From an uncultured Tateyamaria sp. (GTDB taxonomy: Bacteria; Pseudomonadota; Alphaproteobacteria; Rhodobacterales; Rhodobacteraceae), in assembly GCF_947503465.1 (NCBI RefSeq), contig NZ_CANNDN010000003.1, positions 124,001-188,000 on the forward strand: a DNA stretch of 64,000 nucleotides, written 5' to 3'. Positions 1,168 through 62,489 of this stretch are shown here, piece by piece (position 1 is the stretch's first letter; the number at the start of each line of letters is the position of its first letter). The notes under the pieces are model-generated. The model had not been told where the DNA came from. It did not search any database and saw only the letters and a program-made list of their open reading frames with translations. The position numbers and the translations under genes were made by a program.

Positions 1168-2201
1168 TCACGACGCTTGCGGCCCTGCTGTGCGGGGCCG
1201 TGGCACAGGCGGACACATTGCGCATCGCCACCTACAACACGGAACTCCAACGCAAGGGCCCCGGTCTTTTCCTGCGTGACCTCGTGCGAGGTGACGATGA
1301 CCAGATCACTGCCGTGCTCGACGTCATCGCGCGGGCGGATGCCGACGTTCTGGCGCTCCAGGGCATCGACTACGACCTGACCGGAGAAGCGCTCAGCCGC
1401 CTTGCCGACGCTGCGGGGTACCCACACCATTTTGCGCTGCGTCCCAACACCGGCCGTCCCACCGGACTGGATATGGATGGTGACGGACGGCTTGGCGGAC
1501 CGCGCGACGCCCAGGGCTTTGGTTACTTTTCCGGTCAGGGCGGTATGGCGATCCTGTCGCGCCTGCCGATTGATGCCGCCAACGTCCAGGACCTGTCCGA
1601 CCTACTGTGGGTCGATGTGCCGGACGCGCGTCTGCCCGAGGTGAACGGGGCCCCCTTCCCATCCAAAGAGGCGCAAGCCGCTCAGCGCCTGTCCACGACC
1701 GGGCACTGGATCGTGTCCATCACCACGCCGGACGGTCCGTTTCACCTGATGACCTTCCATGCCAGCCCGCCGGTCTTTGACGGGCCCGAAGATCGGAACG
1801 GCAAGCGCAATCACGACGAGGTCCGGCTGTGGCAGCACGTTCTGGACGGCACCGTTGGCACCGCACCGCCGGGTGCGTTTGTGATTGCCGGGGATGCAAA
1901 CCTTGACCCCCGGGACGGCAGCGGTTTGCACAGTGCGATCATTGACCTTCTGCAAGATCAACGGCTTAGCGATGTGTCCCCGCGGGGACAGTTTGGCACC
2001 GACACCGTGGACTGGACCGATCCCGTGCCCGGCGACCTGCGCGTCAGCTATGTTTTGCCCTCGACCCACTGGACCGCCATCGACAGCGGCGTGTTGTGGC
2101 CCGCACCGGACGATCCCTTTGCCGACTCGGTCGCCACAGCCAGCCGCCACCGGCTTGTTTGGGCCGACCTGACCCTTGACCCTGCGGACGGTGGTGAGTA
2201 G
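1164..2201 (+). CDS. Endonuclease/exonuclease/phosphatase-fold protein, probably secreted
   Basis: The protein has the exonuclease/endonuclease/phosphatase (EEP) fold signatures: LRIATYNTE near the N-terminus, a DADVLALQGID segment, VIAGDANLDP in the middle and SRHRLVWADL at the C-terminus. A hydrophobic stretch ending in AVAQA just before LRIATYN looks like a signal peptide, suggesting a periplasmic or secreted phosphodiesterase or nuclease. Two things are odd. The usual catalytic Glu of the second motif (LQE) is Gly here (LQG). The only start that places the signal peptide at the N-terminus and overlaps the upstream stop is CTG at 1164; an ATG at 1044 would add 40 charged residues lying inside the previous gene. 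Activity and substrate are unknown. Confidence 0.75.
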   Translation: MITTLAALLCGAVAQADTLRIATYNTELQRKGPGLFLRDLVRGDDDQITAVLDVIARADADVLALQGIDYDLTGEALSRLADAAGYPHHFALRPNTGRPTGLDMDGDGRLGGPRDAQGFGYFSGQGGMAILSRLPIDAANVQDLSDLLWVDVPDARLPEVNGAPFPSKEAQAAQRLSTTGHWIVSITTPDGPFHLMTFHASPPVFDGPEDRNGKRNHDEVRLWQHVLDGTVGTAPPGAFVIAGDANLDPRDGSGLHSAIIDLLQDQRLSDVSPRGQFGTDTVDWTDPVPGDLRVSYVLPSTHWTAIDSGVLWPAPDDPFADSVATASRHRLVWADLTLDPADGGE

Positions 2202-2234
2202 GCGAAACCTCAAGCAATCAAAGGAGTTTCGCCC

Positions 2235-3338
2235 ATGTCCAATCCGTCGATCTTGATCCTGCCCGGCGACGGCATCGGCCCCGAAGTCATGGACCAGGTG
2301 GTCCGGGTCATCGACTGGTACGGCGCGAAACGGGACCTGGCCTTTGACGTCTCGACCGACCTTGTGGGCGGGGCGGCCTATGACGCGCATGGCGTGCCGC
2401 TACACGACGACACCATGGCCAAGGCACAAGAGGTGGACGCGGTTCTGCTGGGTGCCGTTGGGGGGCCGAAATACGACGACCTGGACTTTTCGGTGAAGCC
2501 AGAGCGCGGCCTGCTGCGTCTGCGCAAGGAGATGGACCTGTTTTCGAACCTGCGCCCGGCACAATGCTTTGACGCGCTGGCGGATTTCTCTTCGTTGAAA
2601 AAGGATGTGGTCGCAGGCCTTGACATCATGATCGTGCGCGAGCTGACATCCGGCGTCTACTTTGGCGAACCGCGCGGCATCTTCGAGGAAGGCAACGAAC
2701 GCGTCGGTATCAATACCCAGCGCTATACTGAATCAGAGATCGAACGCGCCGCCCGCTCGGCCTTTGAACTGGCGATGCGCCGCAGCAAAAAGGTCTGCTC
2801 GATGGAGAAGGCCAACGTGATGGAATCGGGCATTCTCTGGCGCGAAGTCGTGACCAAGGTGGGCGAAGACTATCCCGAGGTGGAGCTGAGCCACATGTAC
2901 GCCGACAATGGCGCGATGCAGCTGGTGCGCGCGCCCAAGCAGTTTGACGTGATCGTCACGGACAACCTGTTCGGCGACATCCTGTCGGACTGTGCCGCGA
3001 TGCTGACGGGTTCGCTCGGCATGTTGCCCTCCGCCTCGCTGGGTGCACCGATGGCGAACGGACGGCCCAAGGCCATGTACGAGCCCGTCCACGGCTCGGC
3101 CCCCGACATCGCGGGTCAGGGCAAGGCGAACCCGATTGCCTGCATGCTCAGCTTTGCGATGGCCCTGCGCTATTCCTTCGACCAAGGGGACGAAGCCGCG
3201 CGGCTGGAGAACGCCATCGAAAAGGTGCTGGCAGACGGGGCACGCACGGCTGACCTGATGGGACCCGAAGGCGGCACACCGCTGTCGACGGCAGACATGG
3301 GCGACGCGATCCTCGCGGCCCTTGACGCCAGCCTTTGA
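2235..3338 (+). CDS. leuB: 3-isopropylmalate dehydrogenase
   Basis: LeuB catalyses the NAD-dependent oxidative decarboxylation of 3-isopropylmalate to 2-oxoisocaproate in cytosolic leucine biosynthesis. The 367-residue length is normal for the family. Visible signatures are the N-terminal [10 protein letters not shown] nucleotide-fold motif, the substrate loop with [18 protein letters not shown], and the metal/NAD-binding signature around [15 protein letters not shown] followed by [18 protein letters not shown]. The ATG follows AAGGAG eight bases upstream. It follows the EEP-fold gene by 33 bases and may be co-transcribed with it. A strong GC hairpin lies just after the stop. Confidence 0.97.
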
Positions 3339-3348
3339 CAGGGCGCGG

Positions 3349-3374
3349 GCGCGCGACTGCCACAGGTCGCGCGC
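3349..3374 (+). terminator. GC-rich hairpin downstream of leuB
   Basis: A perfect inverted repeat with nine-base arms (GCGCGCGAC and GTCGCGCGC) around an eight-base loop begins ten bases after the leuB stop. It lacks a T-run, so it is either a weak or Rho-assisted terminator or an RNA-stabilising 3' hairpin. Confidence 0.5.
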
Positions 3375-3459
3375 CATGTCAGGGCAGGAATTCCTGACTT
3401 GGGACATCACGACGCGGTCACCACTTCGTGATCCGTAGTAACGGACCAAAGGAAATCCC

Positions 3460-3822
3460 ATGTCCCTGTATTCCCTGCGCACTGCACTGTGCGCCCTTGT
3501 TCTTGGTGGCCTTGCGGCCTGTGATCTTGCATACCCCGTCAGCGTGATTGGCGATGACGGCATGACCTTCCGCGGCTCTGCCACCGACACGTTCCTGCAT
3601 GGTGGCAGCTTTCAGGCGACGAATGGCAGCGCGGTGTGTTCGGGCACCTATGACAAGTTCGCGGATATCAGCACGGTGAGCTTCCCCGTCGTGTGCAACA
3701 ACGGCCTGCGCGGCGTCGGCACCGCCTATTTCCAATCGCCCACCAGTGGTTCCGGCTTTGTCACAATGACCGATGGCAGCCGCTGGCAGTTCATCTTCGG
3801 ACAAGGTGCGCTGTCTATTTAG
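3460..3822 (+). CDS. Small predicted lipoprotein
   Basis: This 120-residue protein begins with a basic, hydrophobic leader and a lipobox LAAC at about residues 18-21, so Cys21 is the likely lipidated residue. The mature part is rich in Gly, Ser and Thr, with alternating hydrophobic residues (FRGSATDTFLHGG, YFQSPTSGSGFVTMTDG) that suggest a small beta-structured outer-membrane lipoprotein. Cysteines at about 60 and 79 could form a disulfide. AAGGAAA precedes the ATG by five bases. I do not recognise a named family; many Rhodobacteraceae carry similar small lipoproteins. Confidence 0.7.
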   Translation: MSLYSLRTALCALVLGGLAACDLAYPVSVIGDDGMTFRGSATDTFLHGGSFQATNGSAVCSGTYDKFADISTVSFPVVCNNGLRGVGTAYFQSPTSGSGFVTMTDGSRWQFIFGQGALSI

Positions 3823-3894
3823 GCAGTGGCGGGGCTGGTGGAGCGCGGCCAGCCCCGCTATGCAGCCCCTGACCCAACCACCAAGGCGACGCTG

Positions 3895-4878
3895 ATGTCA
3901 TCCAATGCCAAGGGGGCGCTTCTGGCCCTGATCGCTTTTGGGCTGTTTTCCACCCACGACGTCTTCATCAAGACGCTCGGGGCCACGTATTCGCCCATCC
4001 AGATCGTGTTTTTCAGCGTGCTGCTCAGCTTTCCGCTGGCAACGATCATGCTGATGCGGGATGCAAGGCCCGGCACGCTGGTTCCCGTGCATCCGTGGTG
4101 GATGGCCCTGCGCACCGTGGGGGCCGTGATCACCGGGGTGTCGGCGTTTTACGCGTTTTCGAACCTGCCGCTCACGCAGACCTATGCCATCCTGTTTGCC
4201 ACGCCGTTGCTGATTACCGTGCTGTCGATCCCGATCCTGGGCGAAAAGGTGCGTCTGCCGCGATGGCTTGCCGTCATTGTGGGGCTGCTGGGTGTGATGG
4301 TTGTCTTGCGCCCGGGCACGACGGATCTGACCCTTGGCCATGCCGCCGCCATCGTCGCCGCCTTTGCCGGGGCGTTTGCGTCGATCGTCGTGCGCAAGAT
4401 CGGGGCCGAAGAGCGGACGGTTGTCCTGCTGCTGTATCCGATGGTTGCGAATTTTGTCGTGATGGGGATTGCCCTGATCTTTGTCTACAAACCCATGCCG
4501 GGCGAGCATCTGGCGATGCTGGCCATCATTTCGGTCATGGCCTGGGTCGCGGGCCGCTTTATCATCGCCGCCTACCAGACCGGCGAAGCCGCGATCGTGG
4601 CGCCCATGCAGTATTCGCAGATCCTGTGGGCAACGGCCTATGGCCTGATCTTTTTCGATGAAACGCCGGACATGTTCACCGGCGTCGGAGCGGGCATTAT
4701 CATCGCGTCCGGCCTGTTCATCGTGTTCCGCGAAAGCACGTCCGGAAATTCCGAAAACACCCCCGTGCTGCGCACCCGCAGCCGCATCGGCACGCCCGGT
4801 ACGTTCCGTGTCAGCAGCCTGATGACCAGCGGCAGGTTCCGGGACAAGCCCCTTGCCAAAACCCCGGACGCGGAGTAA
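3895..4878 (+). CDS. DMT-superfamily (EamA) transporter
   Basis: A polytopic membrane protein of 327 residues with ten hydrophobic segments arranged as two EamA repeats, typical of drug/metabolite exporters. The first repeat starts KGALLALIAFGLFSTHDVFIK and includes the conserved YAFSNLPLTQTYAILFATPLLITVLS segment; the second begins near AAAIVAAFAGAFASIVVRK. The C-terminal 45 residues are hydrophilic and basic. I chose the ATG at 3895 because the in-frame GTG at 3826 would add a non-hydrophobic leader. The substrate cannot be inferred; family members export amino acids, metabolites or drugs. Confidence 0.88.
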   Translation: MSSNAKGALLALIAFGLFSTHDVFIKTLGATYSPIQIVFFSVLLSFPLATIMLMRDARPGTLVPVHPWWMALRTVGAVITGVSAFYAFSNLPLTQTYAILFATPLLITVLSIPILGEKVRLPRWLAVIVGLLGVMVVLRPGTTDLTLGHAAAIVAAFAGAFASIVVRKIGAEERTVVLLLYPMVANFVVMGIALIFVYKPMPGEHLAMLAIISVMAWVAGRFIIAAYQTGEAAIVAPMQYSQILWATAYGLIFFDETPDMFTGVGAGIIIASGLFIVFRESTSGNSENTPVLRTRSRIGTPGTFRVSSLMTSGRFRDKPLAKTPDAE

Positions 4879-4893
4879 TCCGCGCGCATCGGT

Positions 4894-4970
4894 CGGAGTG
4901 TAGCTCAGCCTGGTAGAGCACTGTCTTCGGGAGGCAGGGGCCGGAGGTTCGAATCCTCTCACTCCGACCA
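4894..4970 (+). tRNA. tRNA-Pro (CGG anticodon)
   Basis: The sequence folds as a standard cloverleaf: acceptor stem CGGAGTG with CACTCCG, D-arm TAGCTCAGCCTGGTAGAGCA, anticodon stem CTGTC/GGCAG with loop TTCGGGA giving CGG, and a T-arm with GGTTCGAATCC. CCA is encoded at the 3' end. Confidence 0.97.
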
Positions 4971-5308
4971 AGAAACACCCCTTGTCTACATTGCCCTTGC
5001 CCTTGATCGCGCCCGCGGCAACGATCTTGGGTTTGCACCGCATCCGCGCTGTGCGCGGCGGACGACCGTGTGATCGAACGCCACACGATACCGACGTCAT
5101 CACGCTTTTACCGTGAGGCGCATTTTTCGAAATGGGCGCGTTCACTGTCCGCCATCCCGGTCGATTTGACTGGCCTGTGCCAGATGGACCCTGCATGGCC
5201 TTGCCACCCGTCGCAGCAGGATCGTTGTATGTCGCGAAAGCACTGGACAGGGATGTCCAGTATTTCGCACCGTTTCCGCAACAACGACTCGGAACAGGGA
5301 ATATCGGG
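4971..5308. other. Intergenic region between tRNA-Pro and the amine operon
   Basis: No convincing gene is present; short open frames here lack family signatures. A small inverted repeat (CTGGAC and GTCCAG, six-base loop) at about 5244-5261 lies some 50 bases before the oxidoreductase start and could be an operator or leader hairpin. Confidence 0.5.
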
Positions 5309-7714
5309 ATGAAGTCGCAATATCGCGTGGTGGTGATTGGCGGGGGTGTTGTGGGGGCATCGGTCCTGTATCACCTGGCCAAGATGGGGTGGACGGACGT
5401 GGCGCTGATCGAACGATCCGTTCTGACAGCCGGGTCCAGTTGGCATGCGGCAGGCGGCATTCACGCGCTGAATGCGGACCCGAACATGGCCGCGCTTCAG
5501 GCCTATACCATCGATCTTTTGTCAGAGATCGAAGAGGAAAGCGGCCAGAACATCGGGCTGCACATGACCGGCGGCCTGACCCTGGCGGGCACGCCCGAAC
5601 GCTGGGAATGGCTGCAATCAGCCTACCGCGTGTTCCAGTCCATCGGGATTGAGGATTGCGAGCTTTTGACACCGCAGCAAGCGCAAGACCGCTGTCCCAT
5701 CATGTCCACGGATGGTGTGTTGGGGGCCATGTGGGCCGACCGTGAAGGGTATGTGGACACAACCGGCACCGTGCATGCCTATGCCACGGCGGCCAAGAAA
5801 CGCGGTGCATCAGTGTTCGAACACACCAAGGTCGAGGCGCTGGAACAGGTGCATGACGGCTGGATCGTGAAGACGGACAAGGGCGACATCCGTTGCGAAC
5901 ATGTGGTCAATGCGGCGGGTCTTTGGGCCAAGCAGGTGGGACGCATGGCGGGGATCGAATTGCCTGTCTCGCCGCTGAAGCACCATTACCTGATCACCGA
6001 CCAGATCCCCGAAGTGGCCGCGCATGATTTTGAGATGCCCATGACCGTCGACCTTGAGGGGTTCACTTACATGCGGCAGGACCAAAAGGGCATCCTGATC
6101 GGCATTTACGAGCTGGAGCACCAGCACTGGGCCATGGACGGCGCGCCGTGGAATTACGGGATGGAGCTGTTTCAGCAAGACCTTGACCGGATCGAGAACG
6201 AATTGACGCTGGGCTTTGCCCGCTATCCATCGGCCGAGAATGTGGGGATCAAAACCTGGGTCAACGGCGCCTTCACGTTCAGCCCCGATGGCAACCCGCT
6301 GGTCGGGCCGGTGCCGGGCAAGCGCGGCTACTGGTCCGCCTGTGCGGTCATGGCCGGGTTCCTGCAGGGCGGCGGCGTCGGCAAGTCGCTGGCAGAATGG
6401 ATGATCGAGGGCGAACCGGAAGCCGATGTCTACTGCATGGACGTCGCCCGCTATGGCAAGTTCGCCGATAACAAGCAGTACATCAAGGAAACCACCGGAC
6501 AGTTCTACTCCCGCCGCTTCGTGATGTCGTACCCGAACGAACAGCTTCCAGCGGGGCGGCCGCTGAAGATGGCACCTGCGCATGATGCGATGACGGCGGC
6601 CGGGTGTCGCTGGGGGTCAAGCTGGGATCTGGAGACGCCCTTGTATTTTGCGCCCTCCGACGATTTCGTGGAAAACCTGACGCTGAAGCGGTCGAACGCG
6701 CATGATATTGTCGCCGCCGAATGCCGGAACGTGCGCGAAAATGTCGGCATGGTCGACATCACCGGCTTCTCGCGGTTCGAGGTGACAGGACCGCAGGCCG
6801 AAGCGTGGCTGAACCACGTCATGGCGTCGAAACTGCCCGCGCCGGATCGGGCCAAGCTGGCCCCGATGCTGGGCGAGGACGGGCGACTGAAGGGTGACTT
6901 GACGGTCCTGAACTGGGGTGACGGCCCGTGGTGGATCATGGGGTCCTATTACCTGCGCGCCTGGCACATGCGCTGGTTCGACGACCACATGATCGACGGC
7001 GTGCAGGTCCGCGATCTGGGTGAGGAGATGTGCGGCTTTGGCCTGACCGGCCCGAATGCGCGCAAGGTGATCGAAAAGCTGTGCCATCAGGACATTGGCG
7101 CGCTGGGGTTCATGGGCTGTGGTGATTTTGATGTGGGCATGATCCGGGCAAAGGTGGCGCGCATGTCTGTCGCGGGTGAGTTGGGGTACGAGATCAACTG
7201 CCGCTACGGCGATCATGTGAAATTGCGGCGGATGCTGCTGGAGGCTGGCGCGGATTTCGGCCTGCAGGAATACGGCTTCAACGCCATGCTGTCGTTGCGG
7301 CTGGAAAAATCCTTTGGCATCTGGTCGGCTGAATTTACCCAAGGCTATACCCCCGGCATGACCGGCATGGACCGGTGGATCGACTGGGACAAGGACTTTG
7401 TGGGCAAGGCCGCCGCCATCGCTGAGCGTGACGGGAATGGTCCGGCGCAAAAGCTGGTCACGCTTGAAATAGATGCCGATGACGCGGATGCCAGCGGGTA
7501 CGAACCCGTATGGAATGGCGATACGCGCGTGGGTTTCGTCACGTCGGGCGGTTATGGGCACACGGTGCAAAAGTCCCTCGCCATGGCGTTGGTTGACGTT
7601 GATGCCGCAGCCGAAGGCACCGACCTGAAGGTCCACGTCGTCGGCGTGGAACGGTCCGCCAAGGTGATCGGCCCCTCGCCCTATGACCCGACAGGCAAGG
7701 CCATGCGGGGATGA
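5309..7714 (+). CDS. FAD-dependent oxidoreductase fused to GcvT domain (dimethylglycine/sarcosine dehydrogenase family)
   Basis: This 801-residue protein has an N-terminal DAO-type FAD domain (VVVIGGGVVGASVLYHLAK at residues 6-24, then GSSWHAAGGIHALN, the usual covalent-flavin neighbourhood) and a C-terminal GcvT/aminomethyltransferase domain (about 430-801) that in relatives carries tetrahydrofolate. The family oxidatively N-demethylates dimethylglycine, sarcosine or related methylamines and passes the one-carbon unit to folate. The ATG at 5309 sits immediately before the FAD motif; the frame continues upstream without family similarity. It overlaps the MttB-family gene by four bases (ATGA), and the TetR gene follows, so the three form one operon for methylated-amine use. 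The exact substrate is not known. Confidence 0.9.
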   Translation: MKSQYRVVVIGGGVVGASVLYHLAKMGWTDVALIERSVLTAGSSWHAAGGIHALNADPNMAALQAYTIDLLSEIEEESGQNIGLHMTGGLTLAGTPERWEWLQSAYRVFQSIGIEDCELLTPQQAQDRCPIMSTDGVLGAMWADREGYVDTTGTVHAYATAAKKRGASVFEHTKVEALEQVHDGWIVKTDKGDIRCEHVVNAAGLWAKQVGRMAGIELPVSPLKHHYLITDQIPEVAAHDFEMPMTVDLEGFTYMRQDQKGILIGIYELEHQHWAMDGAPWNYGMELFQQDLDRIENELTLGFARYPSAENVGIKTWVNGAFTFSPDGNPLVGPVPGKRGYWSACAVMAGFLQGGGVGKSLAEWMIEGEPEADVYCMDVARYGKFADNKQYIKETTGQFYSRRFVMSYPNEQLPAGRPLKMAPAHDAMTAAGCRWGSSWDLETPLYFAPSDDFVENLTLKRSNAHDIVAAECRNVRENVGMVDITGFSRFEVTGPQAEAWLNHVMASKLPAPDRAKLAPMLGEDGRLKGDLTVLNWGDGPWWIMGSYYLRAWHMRWFDDHMIDGVQVRDLGEEMCGFGLTGPNARKVIEKLCHQDIGALGFMGCGDFDVGMIRAKVARMSVAGELGYEINCRYGDHVKLRRMLLEAGADFGLQEYGFNAMLSLRLEKSFGIWSAEFTQGYTPGMTGMDRWIDWDKDFVGKAAAIAERDGNGPAQKLVTLEIDADDADASGYEPVWNGDTRVGFVTSGGYGHTVQKSLAMALVDVDAAAEGTDLKVHVVGVERSAKVIGPSPYDPTGKAMRG

Positions 7715-9240
7715 CAGACCCTGCCCGTCGCCGCCGCGGTCGTGGTGCGGCCCCCGTGAGGAGCCGCACCACCAACTACCGCACCCTGCGCAATCCCTTC
7801 CCGCCGATGAACGTGTTTTCGCAGGACCGGATTGCAGCGCTGCACGAAGCGTCCCTGGACGTTCTGGAACGGTTGGGCATCAAGGTTTTGCTGCCCGAAG
7901 CGCGGGCCAGGTTCAAATCGGGGGGCGCGCGCGTGAATGACAGTACCGAAATGGTGCATATCGGGCGCGAGATGGTCGAGGCGGCGCTGGCAACCGCGCC
8001 AAGATCCTTTCCCCTGATCGCGGGAAGCCCGGACCGCAATCTGGTGATGGAACTGGGGTCGATGATCTTTCAGCCCGGCGCGGGCTGTCCCCATGCCACC
8101 GATCTGGACCGGGGTCGCCGTCCGGGCACGGAACAGGACTTTCGTGAATTGATCAGCCTGACGCAGCACTATGACGTGCTGCACATGATCCCGCCGCTGG
8201 TGGAACCGCAGGATGTGCCCATCCACCTGCGCCACTACGCCATGATCCAAGGGCAGATGGAACTGACGGACAAACTGCCCTTCATCTTTTCGCGTGGGAC
8301 CGGGCAGGTCGATGAAAGCTTTGAAATGCTGCGCGATTTTCGCGGGCTTTCAGATGCCGAATTCGCGGCCCGTTCGCATTGCTACACCATCATCAACACC
8401 AATTCGCCCCGGCAACTGGACATCCCCATGGCGCTTGGGATCATGGATTTTGCCCGTGCGGGCCAGATGGCGATCATCACGCCGTTCACGCTGATGGGGG
8501 CCATGGCACCAATCACGGTTGCGGGGGCCATGACGCTCAGCCATGCCGAAGCGTTGGCGGCAATCACACTGGGCCAGTTGGTCAATCCCGGCGCGCCGGT
8601 GTGCTACGGCACTTTCACATCGAATGTGGACATGAAGTCGGGCGCGCCCATCTTTGGCACGCCGGAACACTTCAAGGCATCATTGGCCGCTGGTCAGCTT
8701 GCCCGCCATATCGGTTTGCCGTGGCGATGTGCGTCGGGGTCCGCGGCGAACCTTGGCGATGTGCAGGCCGCGAACGAGACGCAGTTTGGAACCTGGGGCT
8801 GCCTGATGGCCGGCGCCACCGTCACGTTGCACGCGGCGGGGTGGTTGGAGGGCGGATTGACCATTTCGTATGAAAAGCTGGTCACGGATGTCGAGGTCTT
8901 GCAGATGGTGGCCGAACTTTGCGCCGCCACTCCGGCGGACGAGGCCGAGATCGCGATGGACGCATTGGAAGAGGTGCAACCGGGCGGGCACTTCTTTGGC
9001 GCGGCCCACACGATGGAACGCTATGCGACCGAATTCTATGAACCCGTCGTGGCGGATTTTGCCAACTTCGGGACATGGGAAGAACGCGGCGGTTTGGATG
9101 CCACCACGCGGGCGACTGACATCTGGAAAGGTATCCTGCGCGACTTTACCCCGCCTGCGACCAATGGCGATCGTCTGGAGGCCTTGCACAAATACATAGC
9201 AGACCGCACTGCCGCAGGCGGTTGCGCCCCCACAAGCTGA
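7711..9240 (+). CDS. Trimethylamine methyltransferase (MttB) family protein, non-pyrrolysine
   Basis: The 509-residue product belongs to the MttB superfamily, whose members move a methyl group from quaternary or tertiary amines to a corrinoid protein. Conserved segments include SLDVLERLGIKVLLPEAR, the IINTNSPRQLDIPMALGIMDFARAGQ region, TPFTLMGAMAPITVAGAM and GSAANLGDVQAANETQFGTWG. No in-frame TAG interrupts the reading frame, so this is a pyrrolysine-free member like glycine betaine or proline betaine methyltransferases. No corrinoid protein gene lies nearby. Translational coupling to the GcvT-fused oxidoreductase upstream points to a shared pathway for a methylated amine; the substrate is inference. 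Confidence 0.88.
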   Translation: MTDPARRRRGRGAAPVRSRTTNYRTLRNPFPPMNVFSQDRIAALHEASLDVLERLGIKVLLPEARARFKSGGARVNDSTEMVHIGREMVEAALATAPRSFPLIAGSPDRNLVMELGSMIFQPGAGCPHATDLDRGRRPGTEQDFRELISLTQHYDVLHMIPPLVEPQDVPIHLRHYAMIQGQMELTDKLPFIFSRGTGQVDESFEMLRDFRGLSDAEFAARSHCYTIINTNSPRQLDIPMALGIMDFARAGQMAIITPFTLMGAMAPITVAGAMTLSHAEALAAITLGQLVNPGAPVCYGTFTSNVDMKSGAPIFGTPEHFKASLAAGQLARHIGLPWRCASGSAANLGDVQAANETQFGTWGCLMAGATVTLHAAGWLEGGLTISYEKLVTDVEVLQMVAELCAATPADEAEIAMDALEEVQPGGHFFGAAHTMERYATEFYEPVVADFANFGTWEERGGLDATTRATDIWKGILRDFTPPATNGDRLEALHKYIADRTAAGGCAPTS

Positions 9241-9950: not shown

Positions 9951-11120
9951 ATGCGCACTCAGGTCGTGATCATCGGCGGCGGCCCGTCCGGCCTGTTGCT
10001 TGGGCAATTGCTGCACAAGGCGGGCATCGAAACGATCGTGCTGGAACGGCAATCCCGGGCGCATGTGCTGGGCCGCATTCGCGCCGGTGTGCTGGAGCGT
10101 GGCCTTGTCGGTCTGATGGGCGAAGCAAGTGTGGACACCCGCATGAAGGCCGAAGGCTTTGTCCATGACGGCACCTTGATTGCCTATGACAACGACATGT
10201 TCCGCGTGGATTTCGCCGCACATACCGACGCCACCGTCCTGGTCTATGGCCAGACCGAAGTGACGCGTGATCTTTATGATGCGCGGGACGCATCCGGTGG
10301 GGATACGAGGTTTGAGGTCACGGGTGTGGTCATCCACGATGCCGACAGGGACGCCCCTTTTGTCACGTACACGCAGCAGGGCCAGACGCATCGGATCGAC
10401 TGTGATTTCATCGCGGGCTGTGACGGGTTTCACGGGGTCAGTCGCAAGACGATTCCCGAGGCCGTGCGGCGGGAATACGAGAAGGTTTATCCCTTTGGCT
10501 GGCTTGGCATTCTGTCCGAGACCCCGCCCGTGAACGATGAACTGATCTATGCCAATTCGGATCGCGGATTTGCCCTGTGTTCGATGCGCAATGCCAATCT
10601 CAGCCGTTACTACATCCAGTGTGACACATCCGACGATCCATCAAACTGGACCGATGATGCATTCTGGGACGAATTGCGGCGCCGGATACCATCGCAAGCG
10701 GCGGATGTGCTGGTTTCGGGGCCAAGCATTGAAAAATCCATCGCCCCCTTGCGCAGTTTTGTCTGTGAACCGATGCGGTGGGGGCGGCTGTTCCTGTGTG
10801 GGGATGCGGCCCACATCGTGCCGCCGACAGGCGCCAAGGGTCTGAACACGGCTGCGTCGGATGTGCATTACCTGAACCAGGGTTTGCGCCAGTTTTACGG
10901 TGAGAAAAACAGCGAAGGGATCGACCGGTATTCCGAGCGCGCCCTTGCGCGCGTCTGGAAAACGCAGCGCTTCAGTTGGTGGTTTTCCACGCTGATGCAC
11001 CATTTCCCCGGCCAAACCGACTTTGACAAGAAGATGCAACTGGCCGAACTTGCCCTGCTGCGCGACAGTCGCGAAGCACAGGCCGCAATGGCGCTCAGCT
11101 ATGTCGGTCTACCGTACTGA
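9951..11120 (+). CDS. pobA: 4-hydroxybenzoate 3-monooxygenase
   Basis: PobA is a cytosolic FAD- and NADPH-dependent hydroxylase converting 4-hydroxybenzoate to protocatechuate, the entry to the beta-ketoadipate pathway. The 389-residue length fits the family. The N-terminal GGGPSGLLLGQLL binds the ADP of FAD, the DG motif is in FIAGCDGFHGVSR, and the second FAD motif is GDAAHIVPPTGAKGLN. I chose ATG 9951, preceded by GGGGGGAC, over an earlier ATG at 9906 that adds 15 residues. The usual adjacent regulator pobR is absent; the preceding TetR gene belongs to the amine operon. No other protocatechuate genes are in the window. Confidence 0.96.
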   Translation: MRTQVVIIGGGPSGLLLGQLLHKAGIETIVLERQSRAHVLGRIRAGVLERGLVGLMGEASVDTRMKAEGFVHDGTLIAYDNDMFRVDFAAHTDATVLVYGQTEVTRDLYDARDASGGDTRFEVTGVVIHDADRDAPFVTYTQQGQTHRIDCDFIAGCDGFHGVSRKTIPEAVRREYEKVYPFGWLGILSETPPVNDELIYANSDRGFALCSMRNANLSRYYIQCDTSDDPSNWTDDAFWDELRRRIPSQAADVLVSGPSIEKSIAPLRSFVCEPMRWGRLFLCGDAAHIVPPTGAKGLNTAASDVHYLNQGLRQFYGEKNSEGIDRYSERALARVWKTQRFSWWFSTLMHHFPGQTDFDKKMQLAELALLRDSREAQAAMALSYVGLPY

Positions 11121-11189
11121 TCTTAAACACTTTTCAAATTTCCGCTGCTTTAGCGTAAATGAACCACCCTCCTTGTCGGTTGTCGTGAC

Positions 11190-12164
11190 ATGAGGCCACA
11201 CGCGGCATGTCCGCCCTCGCAGCGGTCTCGCACCCATTGGAAAAGAAGAATTGAAACACTCGCCCCCGGTGGCGACGGCGGCAAATCCTTCGACATCCAG
11301 GCCGTGCAATCCATTGGCTTTCGGTCCGGGTCGCGCATCGATGCGTTGATCCTGACCGGGGTCCGGTATGGCGGCAATGGCGGCACGGAACGCAAGGAAA
11401 TCACCATGGCCATTGAGAGGACATCAGCAACCTGACCGTTCATTACGGCAGCCGCGTCTACGGCATCTTTGCCAAGACGAACCTGGGCCGGACGTTTGGC
11501 GCGGGCCATGCGAAGGGCAACACGCAAGAGTTCAAGAATGTCCGCATCATCGGATTGGGCGGCGAGCGCGGTGAAGACCTGGACACGCTGCGCCTGCACT
11601 ACATCCCCAACTACTCCGCTTCGGAACTGGAGGACAACGGGCGTCTGGCTGTCTTTGGCGCCGTGCCCGAGGGCCAGACCATCGAAACCTTCGTCTCAAG
11701 CCGCGTCTCGCATTTGTCGGCCACGCGCCTTTTCATGGAAACGGTGTTCAGCCTCGAACACTCGTCCGAAGCAGGTGTGTCCATTCCCATGGCCCGGACC
11801 GATATCATGGGCAAGACAAACACAGCTTTCGGTTTCACCATGACGACCCAGACCGAATTCACGGAATGGATCGAAAAGGAAGTGTTCGAAAGCAGGCCGG
11901 AAACCTACTCCCCCCAAAGGCAGCGTCAGCCTTGAGGGCGTGCAGGTTGACGTCTTCAAATCCAATGGTGGCAACGGCGCAGTGTGGTTCTTCCCGGTGG
12001 GCGAACCTCACCTGGTGTCCATGCCCCTCGACAAGGGCATGACCTTGGCGGATGAGCTTTATGACATAACCGGCACGCTCCAGCTGTTTTTCCCCGAAAT
12101 GGGCGACATGCTGCAACCGCCACACGGATACGACTATTCCCGGACCGCACCTGTTCCGGCGTGA
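11190..12164 (+). pseudogene. Frameshifted jacalin-like lectin domain protein
   Basis: Three consecutive plus-strand segments in different frames read as one protein. The first (to about 11410) has the jacalin-like pattern GGDGGKSFDIQAVQSIGFRSGS, then ALILTGVRYGGNGG. A shift between about 11405 and 11417 leads to DISNLTVHYGSRVYGIFAK through EKEVFESRPETYS. A second shift in the C-run near 11910 leads to PKGSVSLEGVQVDVFKSNGG and the C-terminus at 12164. The later part resembles the pore-forming or membrane-acting domain often joined to jacalin lectins, but I am not sure of that. The start is unclear. Either the gene is dead or the two shifts are sequence errors; nothing indicates programmed shifting. 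Confidence 0.55.
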
Positions 12165-55138: not shown

Positions 55139-56122
55139 TCATGCCCCCCGAACGCCCTCTTCAATCTGCTCTGCGACGCAGATCGCCTGTGCTTCCCTTG
55201 TCTCGATGGCGATTGCGCTGATGCCTTCCGCCTTCTTGCCCCATCTGCGGTAAAATGCTGTCGGCGTTGATCGATCGCCGAGCCGATACCAGCGCGAGAC
55301 GGTACGCGCCCAGCCTGCGTCGGGATCGATACCGCAGAGCGGGGATGTATGGATCATAGGGCCGATGGATACGGGATGCGCATCAACATCACCGACGAGA
55401 TGCGCGCCGGTACCGCCATCGGATCGGACTGGGACCCAGCCCGCCAGGAATGGCGCGCAATCCAGTTCCGCCGCCGCCGGCCCAGCCACCGCCAATTCGA
55501 GCGACCGCAGCCGCATGCGGGTCGTGATCAGCCGCCAGATGTCCTCATAGGCGAATACCCATTCGAATGCGGTGACGTAGAGCCCGCCGTCGATGCGGGT
55601 CGGTTCAAACTCGGGCGCGACTGTCAGGAATGTCTCCCGCAGGTCGCGGTCGAGGTTGTCCCACGACACCACCGTGCCGTCATCATGCCCCTCCACCCAG
55701 AGGGGGCGGGCTGACCGAAGCCTTTGGAGCAGGTCGAGATCACGCTCATTCAGCTCCATGGCGGCTCTCCCATGCGCAGGCGTCTCGCAAATAGGCTGCC
55801 GAGACATCGGGCTGCTCGTTTGGATATGGGCCTGCGATGCGCCTGCCGTTGTACTCGACCCAACCTTTCGCCCAGTAAACTCGGCCCCTCTTGTAGATTT
55901 CGAGCGGCATGCCTGGCCTCCTTCAAAAATCTTGTCGATCTGCGCCGGTGTGATCAGCATTGTCCGCCCAAGGCGGTAGAATGCCCCAGTCTCGTTTGCT
56001 CGCTCCCGCAGGGTCCGCTCAGAAATATCGATACCCATATCCGCCATCAGCTCGACCCATTCGGAAGGCTTTTTCCCAAGGCCGAGGATTTGGGAGCTGT
56101 CTGATTTGTCGGTCTCTGTCAT
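55139..56122 (-). CDS. Excisionase-type helix-turn-helix protein fused in frame to a DUF6634-like protein
   Basis: Residues 1-about 75 (LGLGKKPSEWVELMADMGIDISERTLRERANETG, then GRTMLITPAQIDKIFEGGQAC) match small excisionase or HTH proteins that precede integrases in Rhodobacteraceae elements. From about residue 122 (MELNERDLDLLQRL at 55759) the protein is different, ending VRSDGGTG, TVSRWYRLGDRSTPTAFYRRWGKKAEG; this half resembles uncharacterised DUF6634-type proteins (low certainty). The 327-residue frame may be a chance fusion after a deletion: the second half has its own ATG at 55759 and could be made separately as 206 residues. Confidence 0.55.
   Translation of the reverse strand: MTETDKSDSSQILGLGKKPSEWVELMADMGIDISERTLRERANETGAFYRLGRTMLITPAQIDKIFEGGQACRSKSTRGAEFTGRKVGSSTTAGASQAHIQTSSPMSRQPICETPAHGRAAMELNERDLDLLQRLRSARPLWVEGHDDGTVVSWDNLDRDLRETFLTVAPEFEPTRIDGGLYVTAFEWVFAYEDIWRLITTRMRLRSLELAVAGPAAAELDCAPFLAGWVPVRSDGGTGAHLVGDVDAHPVSIGPMIHTSPLCGIDPDAGWARTVSRWYRLGDRSTPTAFYRRWGKKAEGISAIAIETREAQAICVAEQIEEGVRGA
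55746..55910 (-). pseudogene. N-terminal remnant of a phage-type integrase
   Basis: In another frame of the same strand, ATG 55910 gives 54 residues beginning MPLEIYKRGRVYWAKGWVEY, the usual N-terminus of tyrosine integrases that overlap an excisionase gene in this family. Similarity ends after about 28 residues (RRIAGPY); the arm, core and catalytic domains are absent. It marks a deletion junction near 55825. Confidence 0.5.
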
Positions 56123-56277
56123 TTCAGTCGTCCTTGTCCGCTTGAGTTGAAACCCCACGCCGCATGGAATCGCTTGTTAAGCACCAATTGACGTGGTCAG
56201 ATGGAAATAATCGGAATAGTTCGTCATTTTTTGCAATGTTCGCGAAAAAATACGATCTCGTCAAATGGAAACTGCAC

Positions 56278-56704: not shown

Positions 56705-57001
56705 ATGCAAAAACCAAGCGACCAATGGAAGAAACTTCGCTGTGCAGCACTGGAACGCGCGCGCCGCAATATGATTGAACCTTTGGAGGTCGTTCACCTG
56801 GCTCTGCTAGGAGCCAGCGCGTTGTACTTGGCCGGATTTCTGCGCCTAAATCTATTCGCTCAAACTGATGAATTTTCGTGGGCTTCCGGCGCCTTCGTTC
56901 TGGTAGCAGCCACTGCCGGTCTACTTGTGCCTGTTCTGACTGGATCAGTTTTGACCCTGCGTTTTGCAGATCGCAGGTTGGCTCGCCTGATTGGCGGGTG
57001 A
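56705..57001 (+). CDS. Small membrane protein, unknown
   Basis: A 98-residue protein with a basic N-terminus (QKPSDQWKKLRCAALERARRN), two hydrophobic segments (about 26-48 and 58-83) and a basic tail. It starts four bases after the XRE gene stop, so they form an operon. No family recognised. Confidence 0.65.
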   Translation: MQKPSDQWKKLRCAALERARRNMIEPLEVVHLALLGASALYLAGFLRLNLFAQTDEFSWASGAFVLVAATAGLLVPVLTGSVLTLRFADRRLARLIGG

Positions 57002-57042: not shown

Positions 57043-57107
57043 TTAGGTTGCCAATTATAGCAGCAGCGCATATGTTCACTTTATGTTCCACTCAAAGGTG
57101 AAGTAAA

Positions 57108-57566
57108 ATGATGACGATCGGCATCCGGGCCCGGCCCTCTAGCGTGGTCTACGCTGTAGTTGACACGGCTGACGGTAGTATCGTGAACCTTGATGAGATA
57201 GTTGTGCCATTGGCATTTGATACACCCGATGCGCTCAAGTACGTCCGGAGCAACTTTCTGGACATAATCCGTGAATACGATGTCCAGCAGGCTGGCATCC
57301 GAGCCACTGAACCAAATTCACAACGTATGAACATCCAGAGGCTTCAGATTGAAGGAGTGATCATCGAGGCCTTTGCGAGCAGCCCGCTTAAGGGCTACTA
57401 TGTCGGTCATATCTCCTCAATTGCATCGCGTTTGGGCCGAACTCGAACAGACCTGAAACCGATGATTGATGGTGACGTCGCCTTCGATGTTGATGACTGG
57501 GAGAATATGTCCAAAGAAGAAAGAGAAGCCGTCCTGTGTGCACTTGGAGCTGAACAAAATGCTTAA
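57108..57566 (+). CDS. Predicted RNase H/RuvC-fold protein, unknown function
   Basis: A 152-residue protein. The N-terminal strands TIGIRARPSSVVYAVVDTADGSIVNLDEIVVP, a helix (DALKYVRSNFLDIIREYDVQQAGIRATEPN) and then QIEGVIIEAFASSPLKGYYVGHISSI fit the order of an RNase H/RuvC-like fold. The first-strand catalytic Asp of RuvC-type nucleases (GID) is Arg here (GIR), so nuclease activity is doubtful; Glu and Asp residues remain elsewhere. The last codons overlap the kinase gene by eight bases. The fold call is inference, and the family is unnamed to me. Confidence 0.65.
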   Translation: MMTIGIRARPSSVVYAVVDTADGSIVNLDEIVVPLAFDTPDALKYVRSNFLDIIREYDVQQAGIRATEPNSQRMNIQRLQIEGVIIEAFASSPLKGYYVGHISSIASRLGRTRTDLKPMIDGDVAFDVDDWENMSKEEREAVLCALGAEQNA

Positions 57567-58584
57567 GCCACACAAAAGAGCTGAGGTTGAGTGGCACGAA
57601 ATCCGCGAGATTGGGCAAGAGGGTAAGAATTCAACCACGTATGTTGTTGAAGATGTCCAGCTAGGCGCTGAAATCGTTATGAAGAGGATCGCAAAAGCAA
57701 AGCTGGATTCTGCCGCTGAATATTTTGATGAAGCTAAGGCTTTGTATGCGACTGCACATCAAAACGTCGTTCCAGTTCTCTACTCCTGCGAAGATGACGA
57801 ATACGTCTACATCGCGCTACCATTCTATGAAGGCGGTTCGTTGGGATCGCTGATGGCGTCTCGCAATCTTACGGTTCGAGAGATTGTTAGAATATCGTGC
57901 CAGCTTTTGTCTGGTCTACACAACATCCACTCGAAAGGCTTGATCCACTTCGACATCAAACCTGACAACATTCTGCTGTCAGAACGCGGCGAAGCTTTGA
58001 TTTCGGATTTTGGTCTTGCTAAGCAGATGTATGCCGGAGAGGCTTGGCAGGACCAGTTCTATATGCCCATAGCCCCGCCAGAAAGAGTGGTTGGACCACC
58101 TTTCAACTTGCAGCATGACATATATCAGTTCGGCCTAACGCTTTATAGGATGTGCTGTGGTGAAGCTTCCGTCAGAGAGCAGTTCGATGCGTTTGGAGGC
58201 GACCGAAAGGCTTTTGTAGGAGCACTTGAAAAGGGGACCTATCCAAGCCGATCACTGTTCCCAGAACATATACCTAACCGGCTGAAAAGTGTTGTTATTC
58301 AGTGCTTAAAGCCAGATCCAAACGACAGATTCCTTTCTGCCTTGGCAGTCGCAAACGAACTTGCGAAGGTCGATAGTTGCTTTGACTGGATGTATGAGGC
58401 CGTTGGAGACGAAAAGCATTGGAAACGGCACGACAATGGAACAGTGAAGAGTTTTACCGTAAGAGGGGATGGTTCAACTGAGTTTTTAACGACAAAGAAT
58501 GGGAGATCGCGCCGCAAAACTGCTCACTGTAAAGCGACAATGACCCCAACAAAAATACGTGGCGTTCTAAAGAGCGAGGGGTAG
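57559..58584 (+). CDS. Serine/threonine protein kinase
   Basis: A 341-residue Hanks-type kinase. Visible elements: glycine loop G19QEGKNSTTYVV, Lys42 (VMKRI), Glu58 (helix C), catalytic loop H130FDIKPDN (HFD in place of HRD), D150FG, P-P-E at 173-175. All catalytic residues are present, so activity is likely. The C-terminal 70 residues are basic and not a known sensor or membrane domain, so the kinase is cytosolic. It overlaps the RNase H-like gene upstream and is followed three bases later by a small basic gene. Ser/Thr kinases occur in several defence systems; the role here is inferred. Confidence 0.88.
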   Translation: MLKPHKRAEVEWHEIREIGQEGKNSTTYVVEDVQLGAEIVMKRIAKAKLDSAAEYFDEAKALYATAHQNVVPVLYSCEDDEYVYIALPFYEGGSLGSLMASRNLTVREIVRISCQLLSGLHNIHSKGLIHFDIKPDNILLSERGEALISDFGLAKQMYAGEAWQDQFYMPIAPPERVVGPPFNLQHDIYQFGLTLYRMCCGEASVREQFDAFGGDRKAFVGALEKGTYPSRSLFPEHIPNRLKSVVIQCLKPDPNDRFLSALAVANELAKVDSCFDWMYEAVGDEKHWKRHDNGTVKSFTVRGDGSTEFLTTKNGRSRRKTAHCKATMTPTKIRGVLKSEG

Positions 58585-58587
58585 TCG

Positions 58588-58755
58588 ATGAAGCGGATCA
58601 AGAACAACCCATGCTCATACAAGCGACGTGAGATTAAGGCGTCGGCTTGGAGCGCTCTGGATGCGCGGCGCGATCCAAACTCACGCAAGGATTTGTTGAG
58701 CGTGAAGATGACACGGGAAGTAAACGTCACTGTACGCAAGAAACCAAACAAGTAA
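58588..58755 (+). CDS. Small basic protein downstream of the kinase
   Basis: ATG 58588 gives 55 residues, very rich in Lys and Arg (KRIKNNPCSYKRREIKASAW, LLSVKMTREVNVTVRKKPNK). It starts three bases after the kinase stop and GAGGGG lies upstream, so translation is plausible. No family recognised; it might be a kinase substrate or a nucleic-acid binder. Confidence 0.55.
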   Translation: MKRIKNNPCSYKRREIKASAWSALDARRDPNSRKDLLSVKMTREVNVTVRKKPNK

Positions 58756-58796
58756 GTTGCTTCTACTCTAGAATAGACCGCGATTTAGTTTTTTCG

Positions 58797-58823
58797 GCAT
58801 AGGCTTGCTATGCGGAACTTTTT
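58797..58823 (+). terminator. Weak terminator-like hairpin between convergent kinase and deaminase genes
   Basis: GCATA and TATGC arms with a seven-base loop are followed five bases later by TTTTT on the plus strand. The stem is short and overlaps the deaminase stop. Confidence 0.3.
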
Positions 58824-60328
58824 ATATCTGAACCGTAGAGATTTTCGAGCACTGCATAGATGACACGAGCCGGTGCCCCAACCTCAATACTACCCAGTCT
58901 TGGCGCTCGTTCACCGTTATACCAATCGACAACTTCACCTTCTGTCGTTTGCCTAGAGCCCTTTTCAAAAATATCGCGGTAACGTCTTGGCGATATACCA
59001 AAAAAGTGTTCGATACTGACCTTTGCACTTTCGGCTGCGTCGGGGCCTACGATGTCTTGGAATAGACTTTCAGTTTTGCTTTTGGGATAGGGTTCAACAA
59101 AGACGATCCGCTCGATGCCAGCCCCAATCAGGTGTTTCGCACAGTTGTGACATGGGTAAGTAGTCACAAAAATTGATGCACCTTTAAGCGAACGGCCCAG
59201 GCGCGCTGCATCAGACAGAGCATTCATCTCGGCGTGAACCATTCTACCATATTCAGTCACACCAGATACTAAGGAGCCCTTTATTGCTTTTCGGTGGCCA
59301 TCATTCTGCAAGATACTATCGACATCATGGCCATCAACAATAAGCCCTTGCTTTTGCAAAACACCTAGGAAATCAAAGATTATCCTATTGATTTCATTCT
59401 TATTTGCCTCACCACCGAGATCAATGTCACGCTTCTTATTCGTATCTTCGTCCCAGTAGTTTCCCCCTCCGTATTTTGGGACTTCGTTGCAACCGACAGC
59501 GATCAAATCGCCCTCGGGCGTCATGATTGCGGCACCGACTTGTCTTGAAAGATCGACCGACCTCAACGACGCAGCTTTTGCCATGTAGCTACCAAATTCA
59601 TCACGGGTTGGTGCGACATTGTTGCGCCCAAAGAAGGCTTTCAAAAAACGCTGGCTGGACCTTTCGAGAGAATCCTCGGACGCGCCATCAAAAAAAACGT
59701 CACCTAGATGAAAAATCTTAGAGATGCGCTGCCCACGTTTGTCGCTTCGTTCGTTTTGATCAGTTGCAATCAGCTTGTCTGCATGGGTTTCGCAGCGGGC
59801 GTTGTCCCAACCATGCTGCTCACTACGCAGCCGAGCTACCAAAGACTGTCTGCGTTGCTCTAGCGAAGAAACGACAGAAACTTGAACAAAGCGCTTTCCA
59901 AAAACCTTGATGAGCAGTTCGACTTCTTCAGGTCGCTTTAGTTGGTCAATGATGAATGCATGTTCGTCGAGTGGGATGAGCGCTCGCTCGTCTATTTTCT
60001 CCTCATCCGTTTCTCCTTGATTTCTTGCAAAGTCTTTTCGAAAATCAACGATCTGTCTGATAGCTTCAGCGGCAAGCACTCCGTTGTTATTGAACGCTTC
60101 TCGAAGCTTGTTTCCTTTGAGAATCTTTTCCTCAAGTACGGACTCGGAGCCCCCCTTGACTACGCTTCCTTTCGCCTGCAAGAGCCTGTCCATCTCTGCG
60201 CTGAGCGACACTGTCACTGGAGTGTAGTCCAATTTCTTGATCGTCGAAGCCAGAATGTCACGTGCTTGATGGATTGGACATCCAATTGGACCAACCAACC
60301 CAAACACCAGTTCGACGCGGTTACTCAT
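58808..60328 (-). CDS. Anti-phage dCTP deaminase-type protein (AvcD/DCD-like)
   Basis: A 506-residue two-part protein. The N-terminal half is a P-loop-like kinase fold with a degenerate Walker A (GLVGPIGCPIHQ). The C-terminal half is a cytidine/dCMP-type deaminase: H365-A-E367 in RMVHAEMNAL and P392CHNC396, giving the zinc ligands and catalytic Glu. This architecture matches the DCD/AvcD proteins that deplete dCTP on phage infection. The start at 60328 follows AAAGGAGTGCAG. It is convergent with the kinase operon and divergent from a small coiled-coil gene. Confidence 0.85.
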   Translation of the reverse strand: MSNRVELVFGLVGPIGCPIHQARDILASTIKKLDYTPVTVSLSAEMDRLLQAKGSVVKGGSESVLEEKILKGNKLREAFNNNGVLAAEAIRQIVDFRKDFARNQGETDEEKIDERALIPLDEHAFIIDQLKRPEEVELLIKVFGKRFVQVSVVSSLEQRRQSLVARLRSEQHGWDNARCETHADKLIATDQNERSDKRGQRISKIFHLGDVFFDGASEDSLERSSQRFLKAFFGRNNVAPTRDEFGSYMAKAASLRSVDLSRQVGAAIMTPEGDLIAVGCNEVPKYGGGNYWDEDTNKKRDIDLGGEANKNEINRIIFDFLGVLQKQGLIVDGHDVDSILQNDGHRKAIKGSLVSGVTEYGRMVHAEMNALSDAARLGRSLKGASIFVTTYPCHNCAKHLIGAGIERIVFVEPYPKSKTESLFQDIVGPDAAESAKVSIEHFFGISPRRYRDIFEKGSRQTTEGEVVDWYNGERAPRLGSIEVGAPARVIYAVLENLYGSDIKSSA

Positions 60329-60410
60329 TCTGCACTCCTTTAACAACCGGAGCACGAGTGTCGGTCCATCCTTAACCAACGTCAAGGCAAGCATTGATCC
60401 ATCACTGAAA

Positions 60411-60430
60411 GTGATTCACAATAGAATCAC
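60411..60430. promoter_or_regulatory. Palindrome between the dCTP deaminase and the divergent small gene
   Basis: Perfect arms GTGATTC and GAATCAC with a six-base spacer (ACAATA) lie 83 bases from the deaminase start and 18 bases from the small gene's ATG, a position suited to an operator acting on both. Confidence 0.55.
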
Positions 60431-60447
60431 AACAGGGAGCAGACACA

Positions 60448-60603
60448 ATGGATCAAGAAAAGCAGCAACAACCTCAGCATGAACCAAACGAGGATGCTCT
60501 GGCCCGCGATCTGGACAAAGAACGAGCAGAGTTCGAACGGATGGCTGAGCGTCAGTCGGAAGCTTCAAGAGAGTATACACGAGGTAAGCTTCTCTCTGCT
60601 TAG
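60448..60603 (+). CDS. Small acidic coiled-coil protein
   Basis: ATG 60448, with GGGAGCA about ten bases upstream, gives 51 residues: a Gln-rich start (MDQEKQQQPQHEPNEDALAR) and a charged heptad-like helix (DLDKERAEFERMAERQSEAS). Composition is protein-like. Vibrio-type avcD genes are paired with an upstream inhibitor (AvcI, an RNA); whether this divergent gene has any such role is unknown. Confidence 0.5.
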   Translation: MDQEKQQQPQHEPNEDALARDLDKERAEFERMAERQSEASREYTRGKLLSA

Positions 60604-60786: not shown

Positions 60787-61067
60787 ATGATTCAAAGTAC
60801 CAAGGGCAAACTCGCCGCCAGCGCTGTTAAAGGCAATACGGCAAAGGCTTCCCGGGTGACTTGGTGAAGCGCACGCGTGCGATGCTTTCGGCGCTGGATG
60901 CTGCGGTGGTTGTTGAGGATTTGCGGTTCCCGCCCGGCAACCACCTGGAAGAACTGAAAGGGGATCGTGCCGGGCAACACTCCGTGAGGATCAACGGGCA
61001 ATGGCGCATCTGCTTTGTCTGGACGCCGAACGGCCCCGCCGATGTCGAGATTGTGGACTACCATTGA
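60787..61067 (+). pseudogene. higB: Frameshifted HigB/RelE-type toxin
   Basis: ATG 60787 opens as MIQSTKGKLAAS, but this frame stops early. From about 60845 another frame reads YGKGFPGDLVKRTRAMLSAL, then LRFPPGNHLEELKGDRAGQHSVRINGQWRICFVW and VEIVDYH, the complete C-terminal part of HigB mRNA interferases. One indel near 60830-60845 explains it. Initiation at GTG 60861 would lack the first strand and helix. The toxin is probably inactive unless the shift is a sequence error. Confidence 0.75.
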
Positions 61068-61079
61068 GAGGATACGCTG

Positions 61080-61370
61080 ATGAGCTTACTTGAAGACCCT
61101 ATGCACCCCGGTGAGGTCCTGAAGGAGCTTTACCTCGATCCCCTGGAGATGGGGGCCATCGCGTTTGCGCGGCGTCTGGGCGTACCTCGAACGCGGATCG
61201 AGCGGTTGATCAAGGGGACGACCGGGATCACGCCTGACACGGCGCTGCGCCTAGCCCGTGTGTTCAACACGACCCCGGCTTACTGGGTGAACTTGCAGAC
61301 GAATTATGACATGGCTTTAGCGGCCAAGGAAATTGACGTGTCTGGCATCGAACCGCTCGTTGCCGCCTAG
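61080..61370 (+). CDS. higA: HigA-type antitoxin
   Basis: A 96-residue XRE-family antidote: MHPGEVLKELYLDPLEMGAIAFARRLGVPRTRIERLIKGTTGITPDTALRLARVFNTTPAYWVNLQTNYDM is the HigA signature. It is intact and starts 12 bases after the toxin stop, as usual for higBA. With the toxin broken it would act only as a repressor. Confidence 0.93.
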   Translation: MSLLEDPMHPGEVLKELYLDPLEMGAIAFARRLGVPRTRIERLIKGTTGITPDTALRLARVFNTTPAYWVNLQTNYDMALAAKEIDVSGIEPLVAA

Positions 61371-62412: not shown

Positions 62413-62489
62413 TGGCGACCCCGGCAGGATTCGAACCTGCAACCTGCCCCTTAGGAGGGGGCTGCTCTATCCAGTTGAGCCACGGGGCC
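62413..62489 (-). tRNA. tRNA-Arg (CCT anticodon)
   Basis: On the minus strand: acceptor GGCCCCG paired with CGGGGTC (one G-T pair), D-arm GGCTCAACTGGATAGAGCA, anticodon stem GCCCC/GGGGC with loop CTCCTAA giving CCT, T-arm GGTTCGAATCC, encoded CCA. Decayed mobile DNA lies on its 3' side, a usual place for integration. Confidence 0.96.

Follow-up and report, generated by a model that had tools for sequence, protein, structure and literature searches.

What are three tightly packed genes, encoding a RuvC-like protein, a Hanks-type serine/threonine kinase and a small basic protein, doing in the DNA of an uncultured Tateyamaria species? They lie within an analysed stretch of 64,000 nucleotides (hereafter the window), and an earlier sequence-only reading had taken them for an undescribed defence or stress module with no named counterpart. 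All three are read in one direction from the forward strand with overlapping or abutting ends, as that reading had described. The first (57108 to 57566) encodes a 152-residue protein, P152, which has a RuvC fold with arginine at two catalytic-acid positions. The second (57559 to 58584) encodes an Stk-type Hanks kinase of 341 residues and shares 8 nt with the end of the P152 gene, while the third (58588 to 58755) encodes a protein of 55 residues, 31 % of them lysine or arginine, that had already been singled out as Lys/Arg-rich. On sequence grounds the locus is a chromosomal relative of the known phage Stk module, from which it differs in its setting and in a LexA-type box. We hold with moderate confidence that it is a chromosomal Stk-type abortive-infection module, in which the pseudo-RuvC and the small protein would release the kinase so that infection is stopped at the cost of the cell.

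The identification comes from phages. A tblastn search of 50,697 phage records returned P152 matches in 14, all of which also encode the kinase; 12 are Enterobacteria, Escherichia or Stx phages and two are SPbeta-like phages of Bacillus. The immunity region of phi24B reads cI, a 113-aa ORF, a RuvC-like ORF, stk and a 54-aa basic ORF. P152 and the window kinase are respectively 40.3 % and 38.8 % identical to their phi24B counterparts over 98-99 % of their length (99 % of the query for the kinase), and the catalytic residues of the kinase are intact. The stk module of 933W-like lambdoid phages and the window have the same order, with the RuvC-like gene directly upstream and the small basic ORF directly downstream of the kinase, and the same abutting starts. 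We therefore dropped the idea of an undescribed system, and the statement that no named system has this composition falls with it: phi24B shares the gene order, and the product of phage stk is homologous to the kinase over its full length. What survives of the original proposal is that the proteins belong together and are best read as serving defence.

Of 5,426 E. coli genomes, 223 carry the three-gene stretch of phi24B, with at least 80 % of it in 221; many of the matches listed are O157:H7, where the annotation mostly names one kinase and two hypothetical proteins. The link to phage 933W runs through the words 'similar to bacteriophage 933W' in the phi24B record, the gene name stk and the presence in O157:H7, the 933W record itself being outside the phage matches listed. 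Passages of the Stk literature (PMC3681748, PMC6356687, PMC8008677, PMC3564112) describe 933W Stk as aborting infection by HK97, with an activity that is limited, if any, without infection and is activated by HK97; in those passages tyrosine phosphorylation and abortive infection of HK97 are described for 933W only. The papers listed by searches on RuvC, kinase and defence together concern CRISPR and unrelated subjects, and passages of PMC10003480 and PMC9955262 do not mention Stk. No account of the three-gene composition, of the arginine-substituted RuvC site or of the version with a LexA box was found among the papers and passages listed from the literature searched, which lies mostly outside subscription papers and the primary Stk papers.

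The association of the genes extends well beyond these phages. P152 relatives were collected from 109 loci (58 in viral contigs, 48 in bacterial genomes, and L002 to L004), many of them near-identical phi24B-type copies, and a member of the kinase family lies directly 3′ of the P152 relative in 108, with alignment gaps of -4 to +36 nt; the lone exception, L006, stops at a contig end. Conversely, a scan with the kinase profile found P152 adjoining in 60 of 61 loci, the exception (L150) beginning at a contig end. The two scans overlap: the P152 scan had already covered 56 of the 61 contigs and, of the five new ones, four are paired and the fifth is L150. Because the kinase scan used short motifs of this family, distant kinases fall outside this statement. 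The distances of P152 and of the kinase are correlated (r = 0.88). In L015, L028 and L034 the kinase frame, taken from its inferred start, is interrupted, and L013 ends within the kinase. An unconserved pairing in other genomes, which the sequence-only reading had named as an outcome that would tell against it, is thus not what was found: the pair is near-obligate. The non-redundant set of 60 used below was drawn from 107 loci, with L001 to L004 set aside; it requires at least 140 aa of the P152 relative and at least 325 aa of the kinase, and was thinned of sequences at 92 % identity or more.

The system ranges over alpha-, beta- and gammaproteobacteria, Bacteroidota and Bacillus phages, yet it is rare, being present in 2 of 394 genomes of the family and 2 of 385 of the class, the window's own genome included in each count, and in 5 of 72,556 plasmids. 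Measured against L064, dN/dS is 0.024 for P152, 0.065 for the kinase and 0.105 for the small protein; against L065, where dS is near saturation, the values are 0.048, 0.052 and 0.131. Comparisons with L066 and L067 (saturated) and with L063 (too similar) are uninformative. The L065 values argue that the three-gene unit is more than chance, and dN/dS indicates that the module of the window is under purifying selection.

Convergent with the module lies a gene for a dCTP deaminase (58808 to 60394, reverse strand, its start uncertain, at 60394 or at about 60328). Its anti-phage type, proposed from the sequence, is borne out by the NF041025 model (414.3 bits against a cut-off of 400) and by PADLOC dCTPase (2e-138). 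The deaminase adjoins the module in all four closest relatives (L063 to L066) and, by tblastn, beside no module in the other fetched loci, whose flanks reach up to 6-7 kb and are in some cases shorter; it is a co-inherited neighbour outside the core module. In a blastn comparison with 12.5 kb of L065, DNA homology covers 57073 to 60603 only, that is, the module and the deaminase, and in the closest relatives the two move jointly as a cassette of 3.5 kb.

The surroundings look like decayed mobile DNA, as had been suggested, because homology to the relatives' island breaks off at 55825, within the ORF that in L063 carries the integrase domain. A tRNA-Arg(CCT) at 62413 to 62489 matches a 47-bp repeat (L063 3649-3695) beside the L063 integrase. 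The 339-aa ORF at 55139 to 56158 (reverse strand) matches the relatives' island over its N-terminal third (62-89 %) and holds DUF6634 in the remainder; this chimera-like composition suggests a deletion junction. The toxin-antitoxin remnant reported nearby is a HigBA-type pair at 60861 to 61370, with a short HigB of 68 aa against 93 in L066. Elsewhere, L063 carries at 10359-12117 a weak NACHT match below the Pfam cut-off and a following ORF, possibly a further defence gene.

Across 30 genome loci, the nearest ORFs (117 of 119, the longest of L091 and of L099 being omitted) match 90 PADLOC families at 1e-10, and the 25 families listed include dCTPase (to which L065 and L066 contribute as members of the set), dGTPase, capP, capH, type I REase, AbiEi/AbiEii and DrmD. 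A control of 117 arbitrary ORFs of related genomes, drawn from 18 of 19 stretches, has matches in 24 families, which include DpdF and IetA. We treat the comparison as supportive only, since PADLOC families overlap and the control was drawn without matching its genomes to the loci for taxon.

The unit could instead be toxin-antitoxin-like, the kinase being a self-killing toxin and the pseudo-RuvC or the small protein its antitoxin, with retention of the mobile element as its main job and abortion of phage infection as a side effect. In favour of this are the tight overlap and fixed order, the carriage by prophages, plasmids and integrase islands, and a rare and scattered occurrence (one of 393 other genomes of the family and one of 384 others of the class). 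We nevertheless consider it unlikely, as the HK97-activated and otherwise limited activity described for 933W Stk in the passages cited above speaks for a triggered logic rather than one of antitoxin loss, and several known defence genes are among the neighbours. The chromosomal Stk-type abortive-infection module remains our preferred reading.

A LexA-type (SOS) box, GTTC-N7-GTTC, lies at 57074 to 57088 on the forward strand, 34 bp 5′ of the P152 start, and the stretch common to the window and L065 begins at this box. The same box stands 34 bp before P152 in L063 to L066, and none lies within 200 bp upstream in the more distant L005, L007, L067 and L068. The motif is given as the LexA site of alphaproteobacteria in a passage of PMC3323433. 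The genome's own lexA and recA each carry it upstream. Exact sites number 132 in the window's genome and those of the reversed control pattern 107, so a single occurrence says little by itself; the claim rests on position and conservation. Within 200 bp and on either strand the motif occurs in 5 of the 60 non-redundant loci, where 0.62 would be expected by chance; it stands at -34 in three (the window, L065 and L066), at -142 in L009 and at -138 in L080. No gamma- or Bacillus-type LexA box was found in the 60 loci, and a promoter scan gave one promoter-like site against 1.5 expected by shuffling, which is no evidence of a promoter. The data do not support LexA control across the family as a whole, the box at -34 being confined to the closest relatives.

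The phi24B-type stk sits in an immunity region, whereas the window copy does not. The upstream protein HTH178 has HTH matches and no peptidase S24 domain, and no CI-type repressor combining the two domains lies upstream on the same strand; we do not, for this reason, file the locus as an immunity region. HTH178 is also separable from the module: in L064 its identity is only 67 %, against 98 % for the module, and L065 has no match to it. We accordingly rejected a 933W-like immunity region with HTH178 as its CI. In further contrast to phage stk, the window copy has its own LexA-type box and the convergent dCTP deaminase. L065 and L005 likewise lack an immunity-region context. Other copies follow S24-type repressors or lie in other DNA: among ten upstream ORFs picked by size from the listed loci, nine have S24 and seven have both S24 and HTH. 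Two genes near the upstream end of the module deserve mention: a 98-aa hydrophobic protein (56705 to 57001) follows the HTH gene, with counterparts in L063, L064 and L066 and no Pfam family above cut-off, and in L066 an HNH restriction-type protein (4886-5818; PADLOC HNH 3.1e-18) lies between the 98-aa gene and the module.

This setting raises a further alternative, in which the kinase and the RuvC-like protein regulate the state of the prophage or island by acting on a repressor, an integrase or recombination, the LexA-type box supplying a tie to DNA damage. S24 repressor-type proteins just upstream in at least nine loci, seven of them also with HTH, are consistent with this, as is a passage of PMC3430580 that places stk under the control of pRM, with expression only in stable lysogeny. 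However, the viral contig L005 carries, within 1331-8380, the module reversed among apparent tail genes, in an arrangement that its ORFs suggest is moron-cassette-like, and L065 and the window have only the module and the deaminase in common. We regard such a regulator as quite improbable, and return to the abortive-infection module and to what each of its proteins may contribute.

The RuvC fold of P152, recognised in the sequence-only reading together with the loss of the first catalytic aspartate (GIR in place of GID), is upheld by its PHROGs match to phrog_3875, 'RuvC-like Holliday junction resolvase' (3.6e-35). The RuvC resolvase has what we take to be the catalytic acids D7, E66, D138 and D141 (E. 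coli numbering). P152 lacks this set: R7 and R65, invariant in all 60 non-redundant loci, align over D7 and E66 in a profile alignment (the R65-E66 match at an hhalign probability of 20 %), so that D7 and probably E66 are replaced by arginine, while position 137 is glutamate in 39 of 60 and E140 is present in 60 of 60. The RuvC Pfam family PF02075 is absent from the P152 matches at E up to 1, and searching the PDB with the sequence profile of P152 yielded chance-level matches only. P152 has a single match in its own genome, and a housekeeping RuvC is encoded elsewhere in it (L115). RuvC-fold domains with a non-cutting role are known from TEFM, Tex and Spt6. These match P152 less well than true RuvC does and form part of transcription proteins that are not known to be linked to kinases. 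That P152 is instead an active nuclease, cutting phage DNA under licence from the kinase, we set aside as very improbable, given the arginines at the D7 and (probably) E66 positions in 60 of 60 loci and the missing Pfam match.

The kinase had been read as complete, with an HFD loop, and this holds: K42, E58, H130, D132, K134, N137 and D150 are invariant in the 60 non-redundant loci and the phenylalanine of HFD, which replaces HRD, is found in 57. The Asp150 named earlier is the aspartate of DFG; that of the catalytic loop is D132. The homologous start is the ATG at 57559, a 372-aa frame from a TTG at 57466 being a mechanical ORF only. Matches to Pkinase (Pfam, 2.9e-37) and phrog_2361, 'serine-threonine kinase' (5.6e-65), agree with this assignment, and Y168 is the sole invariant residue between DFG and the P of (A/P)PE in the 60-sequence alignment. 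The structure model (pLDDT 90.9) comprises a kinase domain of about residues 12-270 and a confident C-terminal beta5-alpha domain, residues 278-341 (58390 to 58581), and the structure-search matches listed stop near residue 277. Known anti-phage kinases in PADLOC, among them MAD6 of MADS (7.1e-48) and PD-T4-6 (3.6e-33), have the Hanks kinase domain in common with it, and the similarity appears to lie mainly there: of the 25 matches listed, to which no cut-off applies in the method, most extend no further than about residue 270-280, although one continues to 327 of 341. The window kinase also misses the NF047741 cut-off of MAD6 (116.2 against 460 bits). We know of no pseudo-RuvC or small partner in PD-T4-6 or in Stk2, a further anti-phage kinase, of staphylococci.

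An equivalent of the third gene, encoding 49-72 aa, is present in 58 of the 60 non-redundant loci, defined as an ORF of 45-75 aa with at least 17 % Lys+Arg that starts -30 to +60 nt from the kinase stop; mononucleotide shuffles yielded one in 178 of 3000 cases. The remaining two, L016 and L059, have ORFs of 55 and 59 aa at the same place, just under the cut-off. An N-terminal K-x-x-N ... Y-x-x-R pattern, judged by eye, is common to many of the small proteins.

Homology, gene order, the near-obligate set of three genes, purifying selection, the arginine positions and the LexA-type box together support a chromosomal Stk-type module, its putative defence role resting on homology, with about 39 % identity between the kinase and Stk of phi24B. 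We propose that the three proteins are made from their overlapping or abutting genes behind the LexA-type box and that the kinase would be held inactive in the uninfected cell, the low activity before infection being taken from the 933W papers. Infection or DNA damage would induce the unit. The pseudo-RuvC, presumably dead as a catalyst, would most likely act as a sensor or scaffold for branched replication or recombination DNA, or for a phage protein acting on such DNA, and the small basic protein as a disordered inhibitor or docking partner. Together they would release the kinase, cell proteins would be phosphorylated, and infection would be stopped with the loss of the cell; this abortive outcome is taken from 933W, and the window copy may work in the same way. 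A broader version is attractive but more doubtful than not: a widespread three-part system in which a charge-inverted RuvC pseudo-nuclease, with arginine in place of metal-binding acids, might read phage recombination or replication intermediates and activate a Hanks kinase of non-RD (HFD) type that a disordered basic peptide restrains or docks, under a lysogeny promoter in prophages and a LexA box in Roseobacter islands, with 933W Stk as its visible third.

933W Stk is one of the few prophage kinases reported to abort infection. Since the Stk-type kinase is hardly ever met without two companions, a small basic protein and a RuvC-fold protein from which catalytic acids are missing, these two become concrete candidates for the switch that turns Stk off and on. 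Should the pseudo-RuvC indeed sense branched DNA, a resolvase would here have been converted into the sensor of a kinase.
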